From NCBI GenBank assembly GCA_903945495.1, contig CAJAVU010000107.1, positions 1 through 64,000 of the forward strand: a stretch of DNA of 64,000 nucleotides, given 5' to 3'. A program made the position numbers and the translations under genes. The notes beneath the pieces were generated by a model, which searched no databases, was not told the DNA's origin, and worked only from the letters and a program-made list of their open reading frames with translations. Shown piece after piece: positions 56,928-63,776 of this stretch (within the stretch, counting starts at the first letter, position 1; each line of letters begins with the position of its first letter). Source of the stretch: an uncultured Flavobacteriales bacterium (GTDB lineage Bacteria > Bacteroidota > Bacteroidia > Flavobacteriales_D > Crocinitomicaceae).

Positions 56928-58076
56928 ATGCAAAAAATATGGTACGGACATTCATCTCGTCTTGGGATGGTAGGAGGCGGTCAACTTGGCCGAATGTTTA
57001 TTCAAGAAGCAATTAATTTCGATGTACATGTTCATGTGCTCGATCCAGATGCAAATGCGCCTTGTAAACATATTGCACACTCGTTTACTCAAGGTTCATT
57101 GAATGACTATGACACGTTGTACAATTTTGGTTTGGACAAAGATGTTTTAACTGTAGAAATTGAAAATGTCAATATTGAAGCACTTGAAGCGCTCGAAAAA
57201 TTAGGGAAGAGAGTCTTTCCACAACCAAGAGTTTTACGCATTATCAAAGACAAAGGAATTCAAAAAGAATTTTACAAAGACCATAACATACCAACGGCTC
57301 CGTTTCAATTGACTGAAAATTTGGAAGATGTAAAACAATTAGCGGATCAAATCCCCTTCGTTCAAAAAATGAGAACAGGTGGTTATGATGGAAAAGGTGT
57401 CCAAGTAATAAGAACTGTAAGTGATTTTGAAAATGCATTTGAAACGCCAAGTGTAATTGAAGAAATGATTCCATTTGAAAAAGAGATTTCGATTATCGTT
57501 GCACGCAATGAAAATGGAGAAATGGCAGTTTATCCAGCTGTAGAATGTGAATTTAGTGAAGAAGCGAATCTTGTAGAATTCTTATTTGCACCTGCCAACA
57601 TTTCTACGGAAATAGAAAACAAAGCAATTGAACTCGCAAAATCAGTTATTGAAAAATTAGAAATGGTCGGGATTTTGGCTGTTGAATTATTCTTAACGAA
57701 AGATGGTTCTTTATTGGTCAATGAAATCGCTCCACGTCCACACAACAGCGGACACCATACAATCGAATGCAATGTGACATCACAGTTCGAACAGCACATG
57801 CGCTCTGTATTGAATTTACCATTGGGATCAACTGAAATACTTCAAGCTGGAGCAATGATCAACCTATTGGGTGAAAAAGGCTATGAAGGCGATGTTTACT
57901 ATGAAGGTTTAGAGAAATTCATTGGAAAACCAGGTGTTCATCCGCATATTTACGGAAAAGCACAAACGAAATCATTCCGAAAAATGGGCCATGTTACGAT
58001 TGCAGGCAAAGACTTAGAGAAGGTAAAAACGCTTGCATTGGAGGTAAAAAATGGAATTCGCGTGCTCTCAAAGTAA
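56928..58076 (+). CDS. purK: N5-carboxyaminoimidazole ribonucleotide synthase
   Basis: This 382-residue ATP-grasp enzyme makes N5-CAIR from AIR, bicarbonate and ATP in purine synthesis. The N-terminus GMVGGGQLGRMFIQEA, ATP-grasp residues in VQKMRTGGYDGKGVQ, and the C-terminal NEIAPRPHNSGHHTIE block are characteristic. purE is not next to it. The purine salvage gene hpt is divergent from it across a 107-base gap holding both promoters. Confidence 0.95.
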   Translation: MQKIWYGHSSRLGMVGGGQLGRMFIQEAINFDVHVHVLDPDANAPCKHIAHSFTQGSLNDYDTLYNFGLDKDVLTVEIENVNIEALEALEKLGKRVFPQPRVLRIIKDKGIQKEFYKDHNIPTAPFQLTENLEDVKQLADQIPFVQKMRTGGYDGKGVQVIRTVSDFENAFETPSVIEEMIPFEKEISIIVARNENGEMAVYPAVECEFSEEANLVEFLFAPANISTEIENKAIELAKSVIEKLEMVGILAVELFLTKDGSLLVNEIAPRPHNSGHHTIECNVTSQFEQHMRSVLNLPLGSTEILQAGAMINLLGEKGYEGDVYYEGLEKFIGKPGVHPHIYGKAQTKSFRKMGHVTIAGKDLEKVKTLALEVKNGIRVLSK

Positions 58077-58175
58077 GTTTATTGACCTAATTATAGAAAA
58101 ATAACATACGAAAACCCCTTATTTTAAAAGGAAATTGAAAATATTAAGCATTTTGTTTAATCTTTTTCTTGTTTC

Positions 58176-58220
58176 GTTAAACAATTTTTGTTTAACTTTG
58201 GACTATTGATTGTTAAACAA
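58176..58220 (+). promoter_or_regulatory. Repeated GTTAAACAA operator-like sites
   Basis: GTTAAACAA (58176-58184) and its exact complement TTGTTTAAC (58188-58196) form an inverted repeat with a 3-base gap. GTTAAACAA recurs at 58212-58220, and a shorter TTGTTTAA lies at 58153-58160. They overlap the sigma-factor promoter's -7 box and likely start site, as a repressor or activator site would. The bound protein is unknown; a MerR-type light regulator is only a guess from carotenoid operons elsewhere. Confidence 0.5.
58193..58200 (+). promoter_or_regulatory. -7 promoter box of the carotenoid-photolyase operon
   Basis: TAACTTTG matches TAnnTTTG, with TTG at 58169-58171 as a -33 element and a 21-base spacer, the best-formed promoter seen in this window. 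It lies 32 bases before the ATG at 58233 and is overlapped by the GTTAAACAA sites. Confidence 0.6.
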
Positions 58221-58232
58221 AATATACTATTT

Positions 58233-58745
58233 ATGTCCACGATTGAATTTAATGAAGCGTTAATAGGGTTAGAGAATAACCTTCACGCTTTTGCTATGAG
58301 CTTTACTCGAAACAATGACGATGCGAAGGATTTAACACAAGAAACAATGCTAAAGGCAATCACTTATCGTAATTATTACACACCTCAAACGAATTTTAAG
58401 GCTTGGGTTTTTACGATTATGAGAAACATCTTCATCAATCAGTACCGAAGAAAAGTTAAAAGAGGAACTATCTTTGACAATTCGGAAGATTTAAAATTGC
58501 TTGTTAATACAAAAGACAATTCATTCTCTCCTATGAACATTATAATAGAAAAGGAAATTGACAAACAAATTAACAAACTTGAGAAGGATTATAAAGAACC
58601 CTTTGAGCTACATTTTCAAGGTTTTAAGTACAAAGAAATCGCTGATCAATTAGAAATCCCTATTGGCACAGTAAAAAGTCGTATCTTCATTGCGCGCAAG
58701 AAACTAATGAACTTCTTGCCGGATTACAATTATACAATGAACTAA
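58233..58745 (+). CDS. ECF-type RNA polymerase sigma factor
   Basis: This 170-residue sigma-70-family protein has region 2 (HAFAMSFTRNNDDAKDLTQETMLKA, then FKAWVFTIMRNIFINQYRR) and region 4 (DYKEPFELHFQGFKYKEIADQ, IGTVKSRIFIARKKL). I use the ATG at 58233, since an earlier in-frame ATG at 58188 lies inside the promoter. It is the first gene of the carotenoid operon, and its TAA shares one base with the next gene's ATG. No anti-sigma factor gene is near. It may drive this operon or other stress genes; that is inference. Confidence 0.92.
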   Translation: MSTIEFNEALIGLENNLHAFAMSFTRNNDDAKDLTQETMLKAITYRNYYTPQTNFKAWVFTIMRNIFINQYRRKVKRGTIFDNSEDLKLLVNTKDNSFSPMNIIIEKEIDKQINKLEKDYKEPFELHFQGFKYKEIADQLEIPIGTVKSRIFIARKKLMNFLPDYNYTMN

Positions 58746-60232
58746 TGTCAAAAAAAGTAACAATTATCGGTGCAGGAATATCTAGTTTATCGACTGCAGC
58801 CTTTCTTGGGAAAGCAGGATATGATGTAACAATACTAGAAAAAAATTCTAGTATTGGAGGAAGAGCACGCCAGTTTGAAGTAGATGGTTTTATATTTGAT
58901 ATGGGACCTAGCTGGTATTGGATGCCCGATGTTTTCGAAGCATTTTACAATAAATTCAACTATACGACATCCGATTTTTACGACCTAAAACGATTGGATC
59001 CATCATACGCCGTATTTTGGCAAGATGGAGACAAAACAAATATCCCAGCCGATGAGAAAAAACTCATTGCTTGGTTCGAAGAAATGGAGCCTGGGAGTGG
59101 TGAACATCTAAAAACATTCTTAAAAGAAGCGAAATATAAATACGAAGTTGGAATGAAGGATTTGGTGCATAAACCGAGTCTCAAACTAACTGAATTTGCA
59201 GATATGCGTATTTTAAAAGGATTAGTAAAATTAAATTTGCTTTCTTCTTTCTCAAAATACATTCGCAAGCATTTCAAAAATGAAAAAATTCTTTCTTTAT
59301 TAGAATTTCCAATACTTTTCCTTGGAGCCATGCCGAAGGACACACCTGCTTTGTATTCATTGATGAATTATGCAGACATTTCACTAGGTACGTGGTATCC
59401 AATGGGAGGAATGTTTAAGTTTATCGAAGCTTTTGAGCGCATTGCACTAGAAAACGGAGTTAAAATTCTCGTTAATCAAGAAGTTACTTCGATAAAATCT
59501 GAAAATGGAAAAGTGACACATGTTGTTACAAAAACGGATGAATTTGAAACAGATATATTAGTTTCTGGAGCAGATTATCAACATACAGACGATAAAATTC
59601 TTGCCGAAAAAGCAAATTACAATGAAAAATACTGGGATTCAAGAACGATGGCGCCATCTTGCTTGTTGTTCTATTTAGGAGTTGATAAAAAAATCGAAGG
59701 TTTAGAACATCACAACCTGTTTTTTGATGAGCCATTTGAGCAACATGCGAAAGAAATCTATAAAGATCCATCTTGGCCATCTGCTCCATTGTTTTATGCA
59801 AGTGCTCCGTCCAAAACAGATCCTAGCGTCGCACCAGAAGGAAAAGAAAACTTGTTTTTATTAATTCCGATTGCACCAAATTTGCAAGATGATGAAGAAA
59901 CAAGAGAGAAATACTTCGATATTTTAATGAATCGATTAGAAGCCCGCACTGGTCAATCGATTAAACAGCATGTGATTTATAAAAAAAGCTATTGTATTGC
60001 CGATTTTAAAAATGACTATCATGCCTTCAAGGGGAATGCTTATGGATTAGCAAATACACTGCGTCAAACAGCAATATTAAAACCTTCCCTAAAAAATAAA
60101 AAACTTCAGAATATGTATTATACCGGACAATTAACTGTTCCTGGTCCTGGAGTTCCACCAGCAATTATTTCTGGAGAAGTAGTTGCGAAAGAAATTATAA
60201 AAGATTTCAAATTAGAACTAGCGAATCATTAA
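58745..60232 (+). CDS. crtI: Phytoene desaturase
   Basis: This 495-residue FAD enzyme desaturates phytoene, usually to lycopene. The N-terminal dinucleotide-binding motif is VTIIGAGISSLSTAAFLGKAG and the substrate-side block is GPSWYWMPDVFEAF. The C-terminal CrtI signature is present as MYYTGQLTVPGPGVPPAIISGEVVA. Length and motifs fit CrtI; CrtN-type or other carotenoid oxidases are related. The ATG overlaps the sigma factor's stop. The next gene, crtB, supplies its substrate. Confidence 0.94.
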   Translation: MSKKVTIIGAGISSLSTAAFLGKAGYDVTILEKNSSIGGRARQFEVDGFIFDMGPSWYWMPDVFEAFYNKFNYTTSDFYDLKRLDPSYAVFWQDGDKTNIPADEKKLIAWFEEMEPGSGEHLKTFLKEAKYKYEVGMKDLVHKPSLKLTEFADMRILKGLVKLNLLSSFSKYIRKHFKNEKILSLLEFPILFLGAMPKDTPALYSLMNYADISLGTWYPMGGMFKFIEAFERIALENGVKILVNQEVTSIKSENGKVTHVVTKTDEFETDILVSGADYQHTDDKILAEKANYNEKYWDSRTMAPSCLLFYLGVDKKIEGLEHHNLFFDEPFEQHAKEIYKDPSWPSAPLFYASAPSKTDPSVAPEGKENLFLLIPIAPNLQDDEETREKYFDILMNRLEARTGQSIKQHVIYKKSYCIADFKNDYHAFKGNAYGLANTLRQTAILKPSLKNKKLQNMYYTGQLTVPGPGVPPAIISGEVVAKEIIKDFKLELANH

Positions 60233-60247
60233 CTCACTATTACACCA

Positions 60248-61084
60248 ATGAAAATATTATTTGATAACGTATCCCACGAAATGAGTGAGCTAACTACAAG
60301 AAGGTATAGCACATCATTTTCACTAGGTATATCTTTCCTTGATAAGGAGTTACACAAGCCAATCTACGCGATTTACGGTTTTGTCCGTTTTGCAGATGAA
60401 ATTGTGGATTCATTCCATGGTTTCGATAAAGAAGCTCTTTTATTAGACTTTAAGGAGCAAACATATCGCGCAATTGATCAAGGAATTTCGTTAAACCCAA
60501 TTCTTAACAGTTTTCAATGGGCTGTCAATAAATATAAAATTCCATCTGTTCTGATTGACACGTTCCTAAACAGTATGGAAATGGATTTAGAAAAGAATGC
60601 GTATGACAAAGCAAAATACGAACAATATATTCTTGGTTCAGCAGAAGTAGTTGGATTGATGTGCCTGAAAATTTTCGTTGAAGGTGACGAAACAGAATAC
60701 GAAAAATTGAAACCGTATGCCATGAAACTGGGTTCTGCTTTTCAAAAAATAAATTTCCTTCGCGACTTAAAGGCTGATTATCAAGAATTGGGAAGAACGT
60801 ATTTCCCGGGAATTGATTTGAATGAATTCAATGCTACTGTTAAAAAAGAAATTGAAGCAGATATCGAAATCGATTTCCAATTAGGTTTTGAAGGAATCAA
60901 ACAATTGCCAAAAAAAGCGCGATTCGGAGTATACATGGCATATATTTATTACTACAAATTATTCAAGAAAATCAAAACGGTACCTGCTCATACGATTTTG
61001 AATGAGCGCATTCGTATTCCAAATAATAAAAAATACCGCTTGTTTTTGACGTCCTATCTTAGACATAATTTAAACTTGATTTGA
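60248..61084 (+). CDS. crtB: Phytoene synthase
   Basis: This 278-residue trans-isoprenyl diphosphate synthase joins two geranylgeranyl diphosphates into phytoene. The first Asp-rich motif is FADEIVDSF (DEIVD) and the second is FLRDLKADYQELGRTYFPG (DLKAD). The N-terminal TTRRYSTSFSLGISFL is typical. Squalene synthase-like enzymes are related, but the pairing with crtI favours phytoene. The following idi gene supplies isoprenoid units. Confidence 0.93.
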   Translation: MKILFDNVSHEMSELTTRRYSTSFSLGISFLDKELHKPIYAIYGFVRFADEIVDSFHGFDKEALLLDFKEQTYRAIDQGISLNPILNSFQWAVNKYKIPSVLIDTFLNSMEMDLEKNAYDKAKYEQYILGSAEVVGLMCLKIFVEGDETEYEKLKPYAMKLGSAFQKINFLRDLKADYQELGRTYFPGIDLNEFNATVKKEIEADIEIDFQLGFEGIKQLPKKARFGVYMAYIYYYKLFKKIKTVPAHTILNERIRIPNNKKYRLFLTSYLRHNLNLI

Positions 61085-61098
61085 TAGAACAGAGCAGT

Positions 61099-61644
61099 AT
61101 GGAAGTAATTCTGGTGAATGTAAATGACGATGTCATTGGTACAATGGAGAAATTGGAAGCCCACGAAAAAGGACTTCTCCACCGTGCGTTCTCTATTTTT
61201 GTATTTAATTCAAACAATGAATTACTTATACACCAACGTGCTTTCGGAAAATATCATTCAGAAGGGTTATGGACCAACACGTGTTGTTCGCATCCATCTC
61301 CTGGAGAAACTGTAATTGAAGCAGCTCATCGTCGCATACAAGAAGAAATGGGTTTCGACTGTGAAATGCACAACGCCTTCCACTTTGTTTATCACGCAGA
61401 ACTTGATAACAATTTAATTGAATACGAATTGGATCATGTTGTTATTGGGCATAGCGAACAAAATCCCGAATTAAATCCAGATGAGGCGATTGATTTCAAA
61501 TGGGTTAATTTAACAGATTTACTCAAAGACATACAGACAAACCCAGAACAGTATACATTTTGGTTCAAAACTATCCTACAAAAACATTTTGACCAATTAA
61601 CAGAACACATGACATATGAAAGTTTGCAGAAGAACCACATTTAA
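61099..61644 (+). CDS. idi: Isopentenyl-diphosphate delta-isomerase, type I
   Basis: This 181-residue Nudix-fold isomerase interconverts IPP and DMAPP, priming isoprenoid synthesis. The catalytic Cys block is NTCCSHPSPGE and the Nudix-related RIQEEMGFDCEM carries the catalytic Glu. I take the ATG at 61099 (MEVILVNVNDD), where type I enzymes usually start; a TTG at 61081, overlapping the crtB stop, would add 6 residues. Its last 29 coding bases overlap the next gene in another frame. Confidence 0.95.
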   Translation: MEVILVNVNDDVIGTMEKLEAHEKGLLHRAFSIFVFNSNNELLIHQRAFGKYHSEGLWTNTCCSHPSPGETVIEAAHRRIQEEMGFDCEMHNAFHFVYHAELDNNLIEYELDHVVIGHSEQNPELNPDEAIDFKWVNLTDLLKDIQTNPEQYTFWFKTILQKHFDQLTEHMTYESLQKNHI

Positions 61645-62020
61645 TGCCGCCCACCGATTATTCAACCCTGAATGGTCAGACGAAAAAAACAGAGAAGTAT
61701 TTGGTAAATGTTCCAACCCAAATTATCATGGACACAATTATGTCTTAGAAACTTGGGTAGAAGGTGATGTTAATCCAGAAACAGGATATGTGGTTGATTT
61801 GAAAGTACTGAAAGAAATCATCAATAACGAAATTTCTGAGCGTTTTGATCACCGTAATTTGAATTTAGACTGCCCTGAATTTGCCAATTTAAAACCTTCA
61901 GCAGAAAATATTTCCATTGTTATTTATAACATTCTTCGACCATTCATTGACGAAAAATGTGGCTTAACCATTCGCTTGTGGGAAACCGAAAACAATGTAG
62001 TTGAATACAACGGTAAATGA
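61616..62020 (+). CDS. QueD/PTPS homologue in the carotenoid-photolyase operon
   Basis: This 134-residue pterin synthase is a paralogue of the queD at 25540. It keeps the zinc histidines (FNAAHRLF, YHGHNY), the catalytic Cys in GKCSNPNYHGH, the FDHRNLNLD motif and WETENNVVEY. It starts inside the end of idi (29-base overlap) and ends overlapping the photolyase start by 4 bases. It is thus coupled to photolyase translation. A role in making a pterin or related chromophore or cofactor for light use is possible; conversion in queuosine synthesis is the default family role. Confidence 0.9.
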   Translation: MKVCRRTTFNAAHRLFNPEWSDEKNREVFGKCSNPNYHGHNYVLETWVEGDVNPETGYVVDLKVLKEIINNEISERFDHRNLNLDCPEFANLKPSAENISIVIYNILRPFIDEKCGLTIRLWETENNVVEYNGK

Positions 62021-63309
62021 CAAGTATATTCTGGCATCGACGAGATTTACGCTTGCACGACAACGCGGGTTTATTCAAGGCTTTAAAATCAGGAGATAAA
62101 ATTCAACCAATCTTCATTTTTGACAGTACAATCCTTTCTCGCTTAAATGTTTCTGATCAACGTGTTTTATTCATCTATCAGGAAATAAAAAAACTGAAAG
62201 AAAAATATGCCGAATACGGAAGCGATTTAAAGGTATTTCATGGAAATCCTGTTGAACTAATACCGTTGATTGCCCATAATCTCAAGGCGAATGCAGTTTA
62301 CACAAATCGTGATTATGAGCCGTATGCACTAAAACGAGATAAAACCTTATTCGAACTACTTAAAACACAAAATTGCGAGTTAATCGGAGCAAAAGACCAC
62401 GTGATTTTTGAGAAAAATGAAGTTCTCAAAGCTGATGGACTTCCCTACACTATTTTCACACCTTATTCACGGAAATGGAAAGAACTTTTGAATTTTTTCT
62501 ACCTGAAAAGTTATCCAGTAGAAAAGCACTTTGGAAATTTAATACATTCTCCCTCAGAGCCACTGATGTCATTAGAAAACATAGGCTTCAACTCACGTCA
62601 ATTCGTGGAATTCCCAACAATTGAAATTCCACTGTCTAGAATAGAGATATACAATACAACGCGTGACATTCCTTCAATTTTAGGCACGAGTCGACTAAGT
62701 TTACATCTTCGTTTTGGAACGATTAGTATCCGAGAATTAGCTCGTGTCGCTCAAGCAAAAAATGAAACGTATTTAAACGAGCTCATTTGGCGTGATTTCT
62801 ATCAAATGATTATTTTTCATTTCCCGCATTCTGCAACTGATTCGTTCAAAAAGCAATACGATCGCATTCAATGGGAACGAAATGAAAACCATTTCATTGC
62901 TTGGTGTGAAGGTAAAACAGGTTATCCATTAGTTGATGCTGGTATGCGTGAATTAAACGCTACTGGATTTATGCACAACCGAGTTCGTATGGTTGTTGCA
63001 AGTTTTCTGACAAAGCACTTACTATTAGATTGGCGTTTAGGAGAAGCTTATTTCGCTGAAAAATTATTGGATTTCGAATTAGCGAGTAATACAGGAGGTT
63101 GGCAATGGGCTGCTGGTTGCGGATGTGATGCTGCACCTTATTTTAGAGTGTTTAATCCAACTAGTCAGCAAGAAAAATTCGACAAAGACTTCAAGTACAT
63201 AAAAAAATGGGTTCCAGAATACGGAACGTCTGAGTATCCAAATCCAATTATCGATCATAAATTTGCACGTGAACGTGTTTTAGCGCGTTACAAAGAAGCA
63301 TTAACTTAA
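62017..63309 (+). CDS. phrB: Deoxyribodipyrimidine photolyase/cryptochrome
   Basis: This 430-residue photolyase repairs cyclobutane pyrimidine dimers with light. The N-terminal antenna-binding Rossmann domain starts TSIFWHRRDLRLHDNAGLF. The C-terminal FAD domain has the signature NRVRMVVASFLTKHLLLDWR, WRDFYQMIIFHFP and NTGGWQWAAGCGCDAAPYFR with tryptophans of the electron-transfer chain. It resembles class I CPD photolyase more than cryptochrome, but the antenna chromophore cannot be read. It is the end of the sigma-crtI-crtB-idi-queD unit. Confidence 0.95.
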   Translation: MTSIFWHRRDLRLHDNAGLFKALKSGDKIQPIFIFDSTILSRLNVSDQRVLFIYQEIKKLKEKYAEYGSDLKVFHGNPVELIPLIAHNLKANAVYTNRDYEPYALKRDKTLFELLKTQNCELIGAKDHVIFEKNEVLKADGLPYTIFTPYSRKWKELLNFFYLKSYPVEKHFGNLIHSPSEPLMSLENIGFNSRQFVEFPTIEIPLSRIEIYNTTRDIPSILGTSRLSLHLRFGTISIRELARVAQAKNETYLNELIWRDFYQMIIFHFPHSATDSFKKQYDRIQWERNENHFIAWCEGKTGYPLVDAGMRELNATGFMHNRVRMVVASFLTKHLLLDWRLGEAYFAEKLLDFELASNTGGWQWAAGCGCDAAPYFRVFNPTSQQEKFDKDFKYIKKWVPEYGTSEYPNPIIDHKFARERVLARYKEALT

Positions 63310-63320
63310 ACAAAATTACC

Positions 63321-63776
63321 ATGGCTTTACAAATCGGCGACAACTGTCCATCATTCAAACTAGCAAATCAATTCGGTGAATTAATCGATAGCTCAAACTT
63401 AATCGGTACAAAAAACTTGGTCATCTATTTTTACCCGAAAGATGACACTCCTGGTTGCACAAAAGAAGCATGTTCTTTCAGAGATTCATATGAAGAGTTC
63501 AAAGATTTGGGTTGTGAAGTTTTGGGTATCTCTTCCGACTCTGTTGAAGACCACAAGAAGTTTGCAGAAAAATATAGATTAAGTTTCAACTTACTTGCCG
63601 ATACTTCAAAGGAATTACGCAAAGCATTTGGAGTTCCTGGAAATCTATTTGGATTAATTCCAGGACGAGTAACCTACATTATCGATTTAAAAGGAAAAAT
63701 TCGTGGTGTTTACAATTCACAAACGAACCCGCTTGGTCACATTGAACAAGCATTAGCGTTAGTGAAAAAGTTATAA
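63321..63776 (+). CDS. bcp: Thioredoxin-dependent thiol peroxidase, BCP type
   Basis: This 151-residue peroxiredoxin reduces hydroperoxides. The peroxidatic Cys and the likely resolving Cys five residues later are in PKDDTPGCTKEACSFRD, the pattern of BCP/PrxQ enzymes with an intramolecular disulfide. It starts 11 bases after the photolyase gene, so it may belong to the same light/oxidative-stress unit. It converges with the edge-cut SRPBCC gene, whose stop lies one base past its own. Confidence 0.95.
   Translation: MALQIGDNCPSFKLANQFGELIDSSNLIGTKNLVIYFYPKDDTPGCTKEACSFRDSYEEFKDLGCEVLGISSDSVEDHKKFAEKYRLSFNLLADTSKELRKAFGVPGNLFGLIPGRVTYIIDLKGKIRGVYNSQTNPLGHIEQALALVKKL

Follow-up and report, generated by a model that had tools for sequence, protein, structure and literature searches.

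The carotenoid and photolyase operon of an uncultured Crocinitomicaceae bacterium is preceded by short repeats that overlie its predicted promoter, which raises the question of what protein reads them and in response to what signal. The repeat array lies in a window of 64,000 nucleotides (the whole stretch of DNA that was analyzed), between purK (56928-58076) and the gene for an ECF sigma factor (58233-58745; Pfam Sigma70_r2 and Sigma70_r4_2), the first gene of the operon. This is followed by genes for a CrtI-type phytoene desaturase (58745-60232; NCBIfam CrtID, 747 bits with a cut-off of 640), the CrtB phytoene synthase (60248-61084; Pfam SQS_PSY), a NUDIX protein (61081-61644; Pfam NUDIX) that from its context is probably an isopentenyl diphosphate isomerase (IDI), a 6-pyruvoyltetrahydropterin synthase family protein (61616-62020; Pfam PTPS), and a DNA photolyase (62017-63309; Pfam DNA_photolyase and FAD_binding_7). 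The syntenic gene downstream, for a Bcp-type peroxiredoxin (63321-63776; Pfam AhpC-TSA), is retained after the photolyase gene in many relatives and is a presumed member of the operon. All of these genes are on the plus strand. The reading favored here, at a probability of about 0.8, is that the repeats are the operator of a CarH-like protein that would bind them with adenosylcobalamin and repress the operon in the dark, and would release it in the light.

The first-pass annotation had described three copies of GTTAAACAA and a shorter TTGTTTAA, two of the former making an inverted repeat with a 3-base gap, and all of these are present exactly. The three copies lie at 58176-58184 (plus), 58188-58196 (minus), and 58212-58220 (plus), the first two enclosing the gap at 58185-58187, and TTGTTTAA lies at 58153-58160. 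Within the window the 9-mer is mildly enriched (5 copies vs. 1.92 expected, a count reached by 3 of 100 shuffles) and TTGTTTAA is not (16 vs. 11.94). The 30-bp dyad TGTTTAA-N16-TTAAACA occurs once in the window with 0.01 expected, and a looser pattern, with spacers of 1-30 and a free base per half-site, is found at four places compared with five for its control. On comparative grounds, the repeating unit is the dyad TGTTTAAC-N14-GTTAAACA, with half-site starts 22 bp apart, two of which make up the promoter array of the window, 35 bp from each other. The first (58154-58183) is TGTTTAAT (58154-58161)-N14-GTTAAACA (58176-58183), with starts 22 bp apart, and the second (58189-58219) is TGTTTAAC (58189-58196)-N15-GTTAAACA (58212-58219), with starts 23 bp apart. 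The Bacteroidota -7 consensus is TAnnTTTG, and under the promoter consensus that we take to apply here the putative -7 element TAACTTTG (58193-58200, plus strand) overlaps half-site 3, in keeping with the annotated overlap of the repeats with the -7 box, and a putative -33 element, TTG (58169-58171, plus strand), stands 21 nt before it, amid the half-sites of the first dyad.

That the repeats are real follows from their conservation, which is the decisive evidence, and not from their copy number. A search with the ECF factor gave 80 named loci, all from metagenome-assembled genomes (MAGs) and mostly from Crocinitomicaceae or Flavobacteriales, the nearest being a Crocinitomicaceae MAG with an ECF factor 96% identical (L007). 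The window is accordingly placed in that family, whose class is Bacteroidia under GTDB and Flavobacteriia at NCBI. The crtI gene directly follows the ECF gene in 79 of the 80, the exception being L024, which is without crtI and crtB and has IDI next. Promoters were compared for the window and 77 of these loci, with L037, L045, and L075 left out because they have too little upstream sequence, by a four-half-site parse in which order and orientation were fixed and start distances of 19-26, 11-15, and 19-26 were allowed. The order TGTTTAAC, GTTAAACA, TGTTTAAC, GTTAAACA is found in 78/78 promoters, with scores of 28-32 out of 32. The first start distance, that of dyad 1, is 22 in all 78, the second is 13 (52 promoters) or 12 (26), and the third, that of dyad 2, is 22 (60) or 23 (18). 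Outside these promoters, the 80 loci (1.18 Mb) contain no array that scores at least 25/32 and a single one that scores 24. The site was to be sought at orthologous operons, with non-conservation named as its refutation, and it is conserved in every one of the 78 promoters examined.

The relation of the array to the predicted promoter is conserved as well. In 74/78 promoters half-site 3 reads TGTT followed by TAnnTTT(G/A), which fits the -7 consensus assumed here for a predicted promoter; the exceptions are L048, L049, L058, and L081, and three of these (L048, L058, and L081) are Fluviicola loci in which carH adjoins. A TTG stands 21 or 22 nt 5′ of the -7 box in 55 of the 74, and TTGs also occur at 15-16 nt (46 occurrences). 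These counts (half-site 3 over the putative -7 element in 74/78, the array in 78/78) support the annotated view of a regulator site that would block or remodel the promoter. The distance between the two dyads is 34-35 bp in the window, g6, and g11 and 63-65 bp in genera g5, g9, and g12 (L196-L201), about three extra helical turns. L024 (7003) and L136 keep the operator, ECF, IDI, and PTPS genes without crtI and crtB, and L024 keeps photolyase too, and control thus seems to outlast these carotenoid genes.

Beyond these promoters, the dyad recurs as a unit. A profile built from 50 of the 78 promoters (alignment A1) finds one strong operator in the source genome, with an E-value of 8e-16, compared with 2e-6 on the opposite strand and 0.004 for the next best match. 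Of the weaker matches, L119 and L120 fall within ORFs or at their 5′ ends and are attributed to chance; L121, at the junction of two minus-strand ORFs, is dismissed less firmly. Exact dyads number two in the source genome, one of them being that of the window. A profile match at 1e-4 or better is present in 72 of 150 family genomes, in which exact dyads total 288, compared with 17 for the reversed control. Several of the matches in genus g18 are single dyads, for example L165, L166, L174, and L178, where the first half is TAACTTTA. In eight g18 genomes, pairs of TGTTTAA and TTAAACA with spacers of 4-28 number 80, compared with 10 for the reversed control, and among the 75 of these pairs that are listed the spacer is 16 in 60 and 17 in 6, out of 25 lengths allowed; a spacer of 16 between the 7-mers equals N14 between 8-base half-sites. 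Because lone operators elsewhere consist of the N14 dyad, this is taken as the unit, and the 3-base-gap inverted repeat, exact as it is in the window, is rejected in that role.

A CarH-like protein accompanies this dyad across genomes. A search with PF13411 finds two MerR proteins in the source genome, the short L001 and the 302-residue CarH-like L002 (MerR_1 match, E 6.9e-15). There, carH (L002) is unlinked to the operon, and the sequence before it showed no operator, whereas in three Fluviicola loci a carH relative immediately precedes the ECF operon. Of 20 regions that were fetched because a profile match stood near carH, 14 have the dyad between carH and ECF or crtI. The order carH - dyad(s) - ECF - crtI is found in genera g5, g6, g9, g11, and g12, and the order carH - dyad - crtI without ECF in g18 and in G104 (g11); crtI stands behind the dyad without an adjoining ECF gene in L195, L202, L208, and L209. 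The arrangement differs in the other six regions (L203-L207 and L210), and in 6/20 an additional dyad immediately precedes carH. In g18, the carH-like genes of L203 and L205 have TspO, SOUL, or fasciclin genes as neighbors in place of crtI, and G083 has two carH-like genes.

Since these regions were selected near carH, the unbiased tests are the counts of co-occurrence. Exact dyads occur in 116 of the 127 family genomes with carH, a class that includes G085, whose match is weak and lies in a different protein, and G028, which has a fragment, and in 3 of the 23 without, a status assigned by elimination for G111, G129, and G135 (Fisher p 3e-14, in a test that counts related genomes as independent, so that relatedness inflates such p values). 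Moving G085 and G028 to the other class leaves the result unchanged, and the three dyad-bearing genomes without carH are 59, 80, and 83% complete. By the profile, an operator match is found in 71/127 genomes with carH and 1/23 without. In a sample of the phylum, the exact dyad is present in 60/84 genomes with carH vs. 7/311 without, although the reversed control is also commoner with carH (14/84 vs. 11/311). For the window's class within that sample the figures are 56/70 vs. 2/28, leaving 14 of 70 carH-bearing genomes without an exact dyad. Dyads are listed for 31 carH-bearing genomes of the phylum sample, and in 13 of these a dyad stands no more than 300 bp from carH. The pairing of dyad and carH thus rests on comparative evidence, namely adjacency and co-occurrence; the proposal of a MerR/CarH-like binder draws support from the several genera in which such a gene adjoins the site, and none from linkage in the source genome itself.

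The other genes found behind the dyad are informative about the signal. Three g18 genomes have 30 dyad loci, corresponding to 25 places, five of them counted on both strands. At one of these (L161), the dyad lies between a rhodopsin gene and a divergent beta-carotene dioxygenase gene (758-1492 and 1600-2472; Pfam). Others precede genes identified by Pfam as PTPS-FolE (L173), TetR (L166), SOUL (L182), and glutathione peroxidase (L181), a gene without a Pfam match that is followed by TspO (L165), and, about 400 bp downstream, CIA30 (L164; Pfam). The genes behind the dyad at other places, such as L162, L170, L176, L185, and L188, show no obvious connection with light. In the phylum sample, 30 dyad loci were taken, one per genome and all from the window's class, and genes were named by tblastn to window and g18 proteins, with identities of about 30-37% in the case of fasciclin and TetR. 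At 24 of these 30 loci, ECF, carH-crtI, rhodopsin, PTPS/FolE, fasciclin, or TetR genes stand beside the dyad, and at six (L212, L228, L232, L237, L239, and L240) none of them does. Conversely, 30 rhodopsin loci were checked from 84 rhodopsin genomes, with a neighboring ORF taken at L254 and L264: a dyad scoring at least 13/16 lies in the 300 bp that precede the first Met in 11/30 and none in 19/30, compared with 0/30 for the reversed sequence, and no dyad was found elsewhere in those 30 loci. Dyads also precede rhodopsin genes in L177, L218, L221, and L225. The light-response type of many of these genes supports the light control that had been suggested for the operon. Fasciclin-like secreted proteins also recur after the dyad in several families (L168, L175, L219, L223, L229, L231, and L241), and we know of no reason for their regulation by light. 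In L166, L174, L233, and L236 a dyad belongs to the gene of a TetR-type regulator, which suggests that control has a second tier; the TetR gene of L233 and L236 is divergent from a sugar epimerase-like gene.

The CarH-like protein itself was compared with its known relatives. A phmmer search with L002 gave E-values of 1.4e-21 to 3whp and 3.2e-21 to 5c8d, the solved CarH structures. The protein scores 106.5 bits (E 1.4e-30) against the NCBIfam CarH equivalog NF052513, below the cut-off of 400, and it is a relative of that equivalog, not a member. Conserved positions were scored in 49 proteins, namely the own protein and 48 others, drawn from 50 loci; of these, L210 has a fragment and was excluded, and L087 corresponds to the own protein. 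The motif Wx9EH contacts the adenosyl group. Its intact form serves to separate CarH from CarA (PMC9304148), and its W, E, and H and the axial His are kept in 49/49. The recognition motif of CarH/LitR proteins in the MerR DNA-binding domain is RxWERRY (PMC9304148), of which R, W, E, R, and Y are kept in 49/49, with the fifth position, where R is expected, being K (36), Q (12), or S (1). In the B12 motif, scored as D/ExHx2G/P-x41-SxT/V-x22-27-GG, the E/D and H are kept in all 49, the Ser of SxT/V in 43 (its T/V position being L in 33 or I in 13), and the first Gly of GG in 40, and the spacings of the own protein (x41 and x26) are canonical. A PduO-type adenosyltransferase (PF01923) is encoded in the source genome (E 5.5e-60). 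The most likely candidate for the binder is a MerR protein of the CarH/LitR type that retains both Wx9EH and the axial His.

Such a protein could bind the dyad without B12, as does the known relative CarA, which needs none (PMC9304148, PMC8156234), or could sense redox state or cobalamin supply, with no direct control by light. This possibility gains from two departures within the 49 proteins: Gly180 of the B12 motif is S in 34, G in 14, and P in 1, and position 132 (T. thermophilus CarH numbering) is L, Q, M, I, or T in 48, with His in a single one. In light-exposed T. thermophilus CarH, His132 is the upper cobalt ligand (PMC9304148), and its replacement may mean that the photoproduct here differs. 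The invariant Wx9EH and axial His, the canonical spacings of the own protein, and the many light-related genes behind the dyad argue the other way, and we consider this explanation unlikely while giving it real weight.

Reading of the repeats by the ECF sigma factor itself, as an autoregulatory promoter, is suggested by the position of its gene at the head of the operon. It is very improbable given that the dyad also precedes crtI without an ECF gene beside it (L195, L202, L208, and L209) and rhodopsin, SOUL, and TspO-cluster genes, and that inverted half-sites straddle TAnnTTT(G/A) in 74/78 promoters. We attach similarly slight probability to a true binder that is some other dimeric regulator co-occurring with carH, such as the TetR type whose gene has a dyad of its own in four loci, because it is carH and not tetR that adjoins the crt-locus dyad in 14/20 regions, which were selected for proximity to carH. 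Chance repeats in an A/T-rich window, where single 8-mer and 9-mer copies are indeed common, are rejected as a practically negligible possibility by the 78/78 conservation, the fixed spacing, and the reversed-pattern controls (288 vs. 17 in the 150 genomes).

The CarH-like operator would then work as follows. With the transcription start placed by prediction, the two dyads would cover about -50 to +14, from 5′ of the -33 element through the -7 element into the leader, and a protein bound there should exclude RNA polymerase. Two adjoining dyads suggest that a tetramer or a pair of dimers binds cooperatively. A MerR protein of the CarH/LitR type, loaded with adenosylcobalamin, would in the dark occupy both dyads in this way and shut out the polymerase; in the light, the Co-C bond would be cleaved, the oligomer would dissociate, and the ECF-sigma, carotenoid, and photolyase operon would be transcribed. 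Because the first gene of the operon encodes an ECF sigma factor, a sigma relay may form part of the switch, and this factor may pass the signal on to further promoters. Where an ECF gene stands behind the dyad at the carH locus inspected, genomes have one or two exact dyads (for example G118, G124, and G046 one each, G060 two; in the phylum sample G239 and G263 one, G259 and G397 two). With carH - dyad - crtI and no adjoining ECF gene there are often more (G052 ten, G083 nine, G038 seven; in the phylum sample G251 and G318 five, G464 four), but G104 and G472 have one each. A sigma relay in place of direct operators is a plausible hypothesis.

Several features are shared with known systems. 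CarH-type repressors act in the dark and are released when light cleaves adenosylcobalamin (PMC8156234). Like class I CarH/LitR proteins (Thermus thermophilus, Bacillus megaterium, and Myxococcus xanthus), those described here have the MerR domain, Wx9EH, and the axial His, with carotenoid genes as their proposed targets and a putative operator over the predicted promoter. They differ in having Ser for Gly180 in 34/49 and no His132 in 48/49, and in an operator that overlaps a -7 box of Bacteroidota type. T. thermophilus CarH binds direct repeats of 11 bp, and an operator of the CarH type has three or four of them in tandem, nAnnTnnACAn (PMC8156234), whereas here an inverted dyad has a 22-bp offset; the half-site TTAAACA fits the T..ACA core of that repeat (PMC8156234), the rest of which is not shared. 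Similarly, CarA occupies about 55 bp of the M. xanthus PB promoter as two cooperating dimers (PMC8156234), but that operator lies at -70 to -19, apparently with other half-sites and spacing, and CarA is without the Trp of Wx9EH (PMC9304148) that is kept here. The Pseudomonas class II LitR proteins PplR1 and PmlR2 have operators of the form TGTACA-N12-TGTACA (PMC9758184), with half-sites other than TGTTTAAC and a start offset of 18 instead of 22. They resemble the present case in having a site over the promoter and a second one between the start site and start codon, and the genes that are light-inducible there include photolyase, FolE, and a cryptochrome-like gene (PMC9758184).

Within the Bacteroidota, Chryseobacterium lacus is yellow in the light and white in the dark, with crt genes induced, and the authors of that study, who found neither a car nor a lit operon, proposed that a new regulator is at work (PMC7064467); neither operator nor regulator is identified in the available text of that paper. 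The literature searched, which did not extend to subscription journals and preprints and was available in part, yielded no description of the dyad operator in this phylum, and the motif in one paper that also concerns photolyase and carotenoids (PMC11217422) is, in its accessible text, a PCR primer. As far as seen, then, what is new is the operator code and the regulon, while the kind of regulator is already known.

The comparative evidence points to a shared CarH-type light switch in this bacterial group. That it is class-wide, with a CarH-type B12 photoreceptor, its own code TGTTTAAC-N14-GTTAAACA, and lineage-specific wiring, we hold to be slightly more probable than the contrary. Its targets would be carotenoids, photolyase, and pterin synthesis, joined in many lineages by proteorhodopsin and the synthesis of retinal, and the wiring would range from many direct operators to one operator before a relaying ECF sigma factor, as in the source genome. 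In the parts of the literature searched, light-dependent pigment expression in the Bacteroidota is reported with no switch described for it. A short, countable operator and an identifiable B12-photoreceptor-like protein make the question of the switch testable in culturable genera, where the prediction is that light and B12 supply would set the expression of carotenoids, photolyase, and, in part, rhodopsin in these bacteria.
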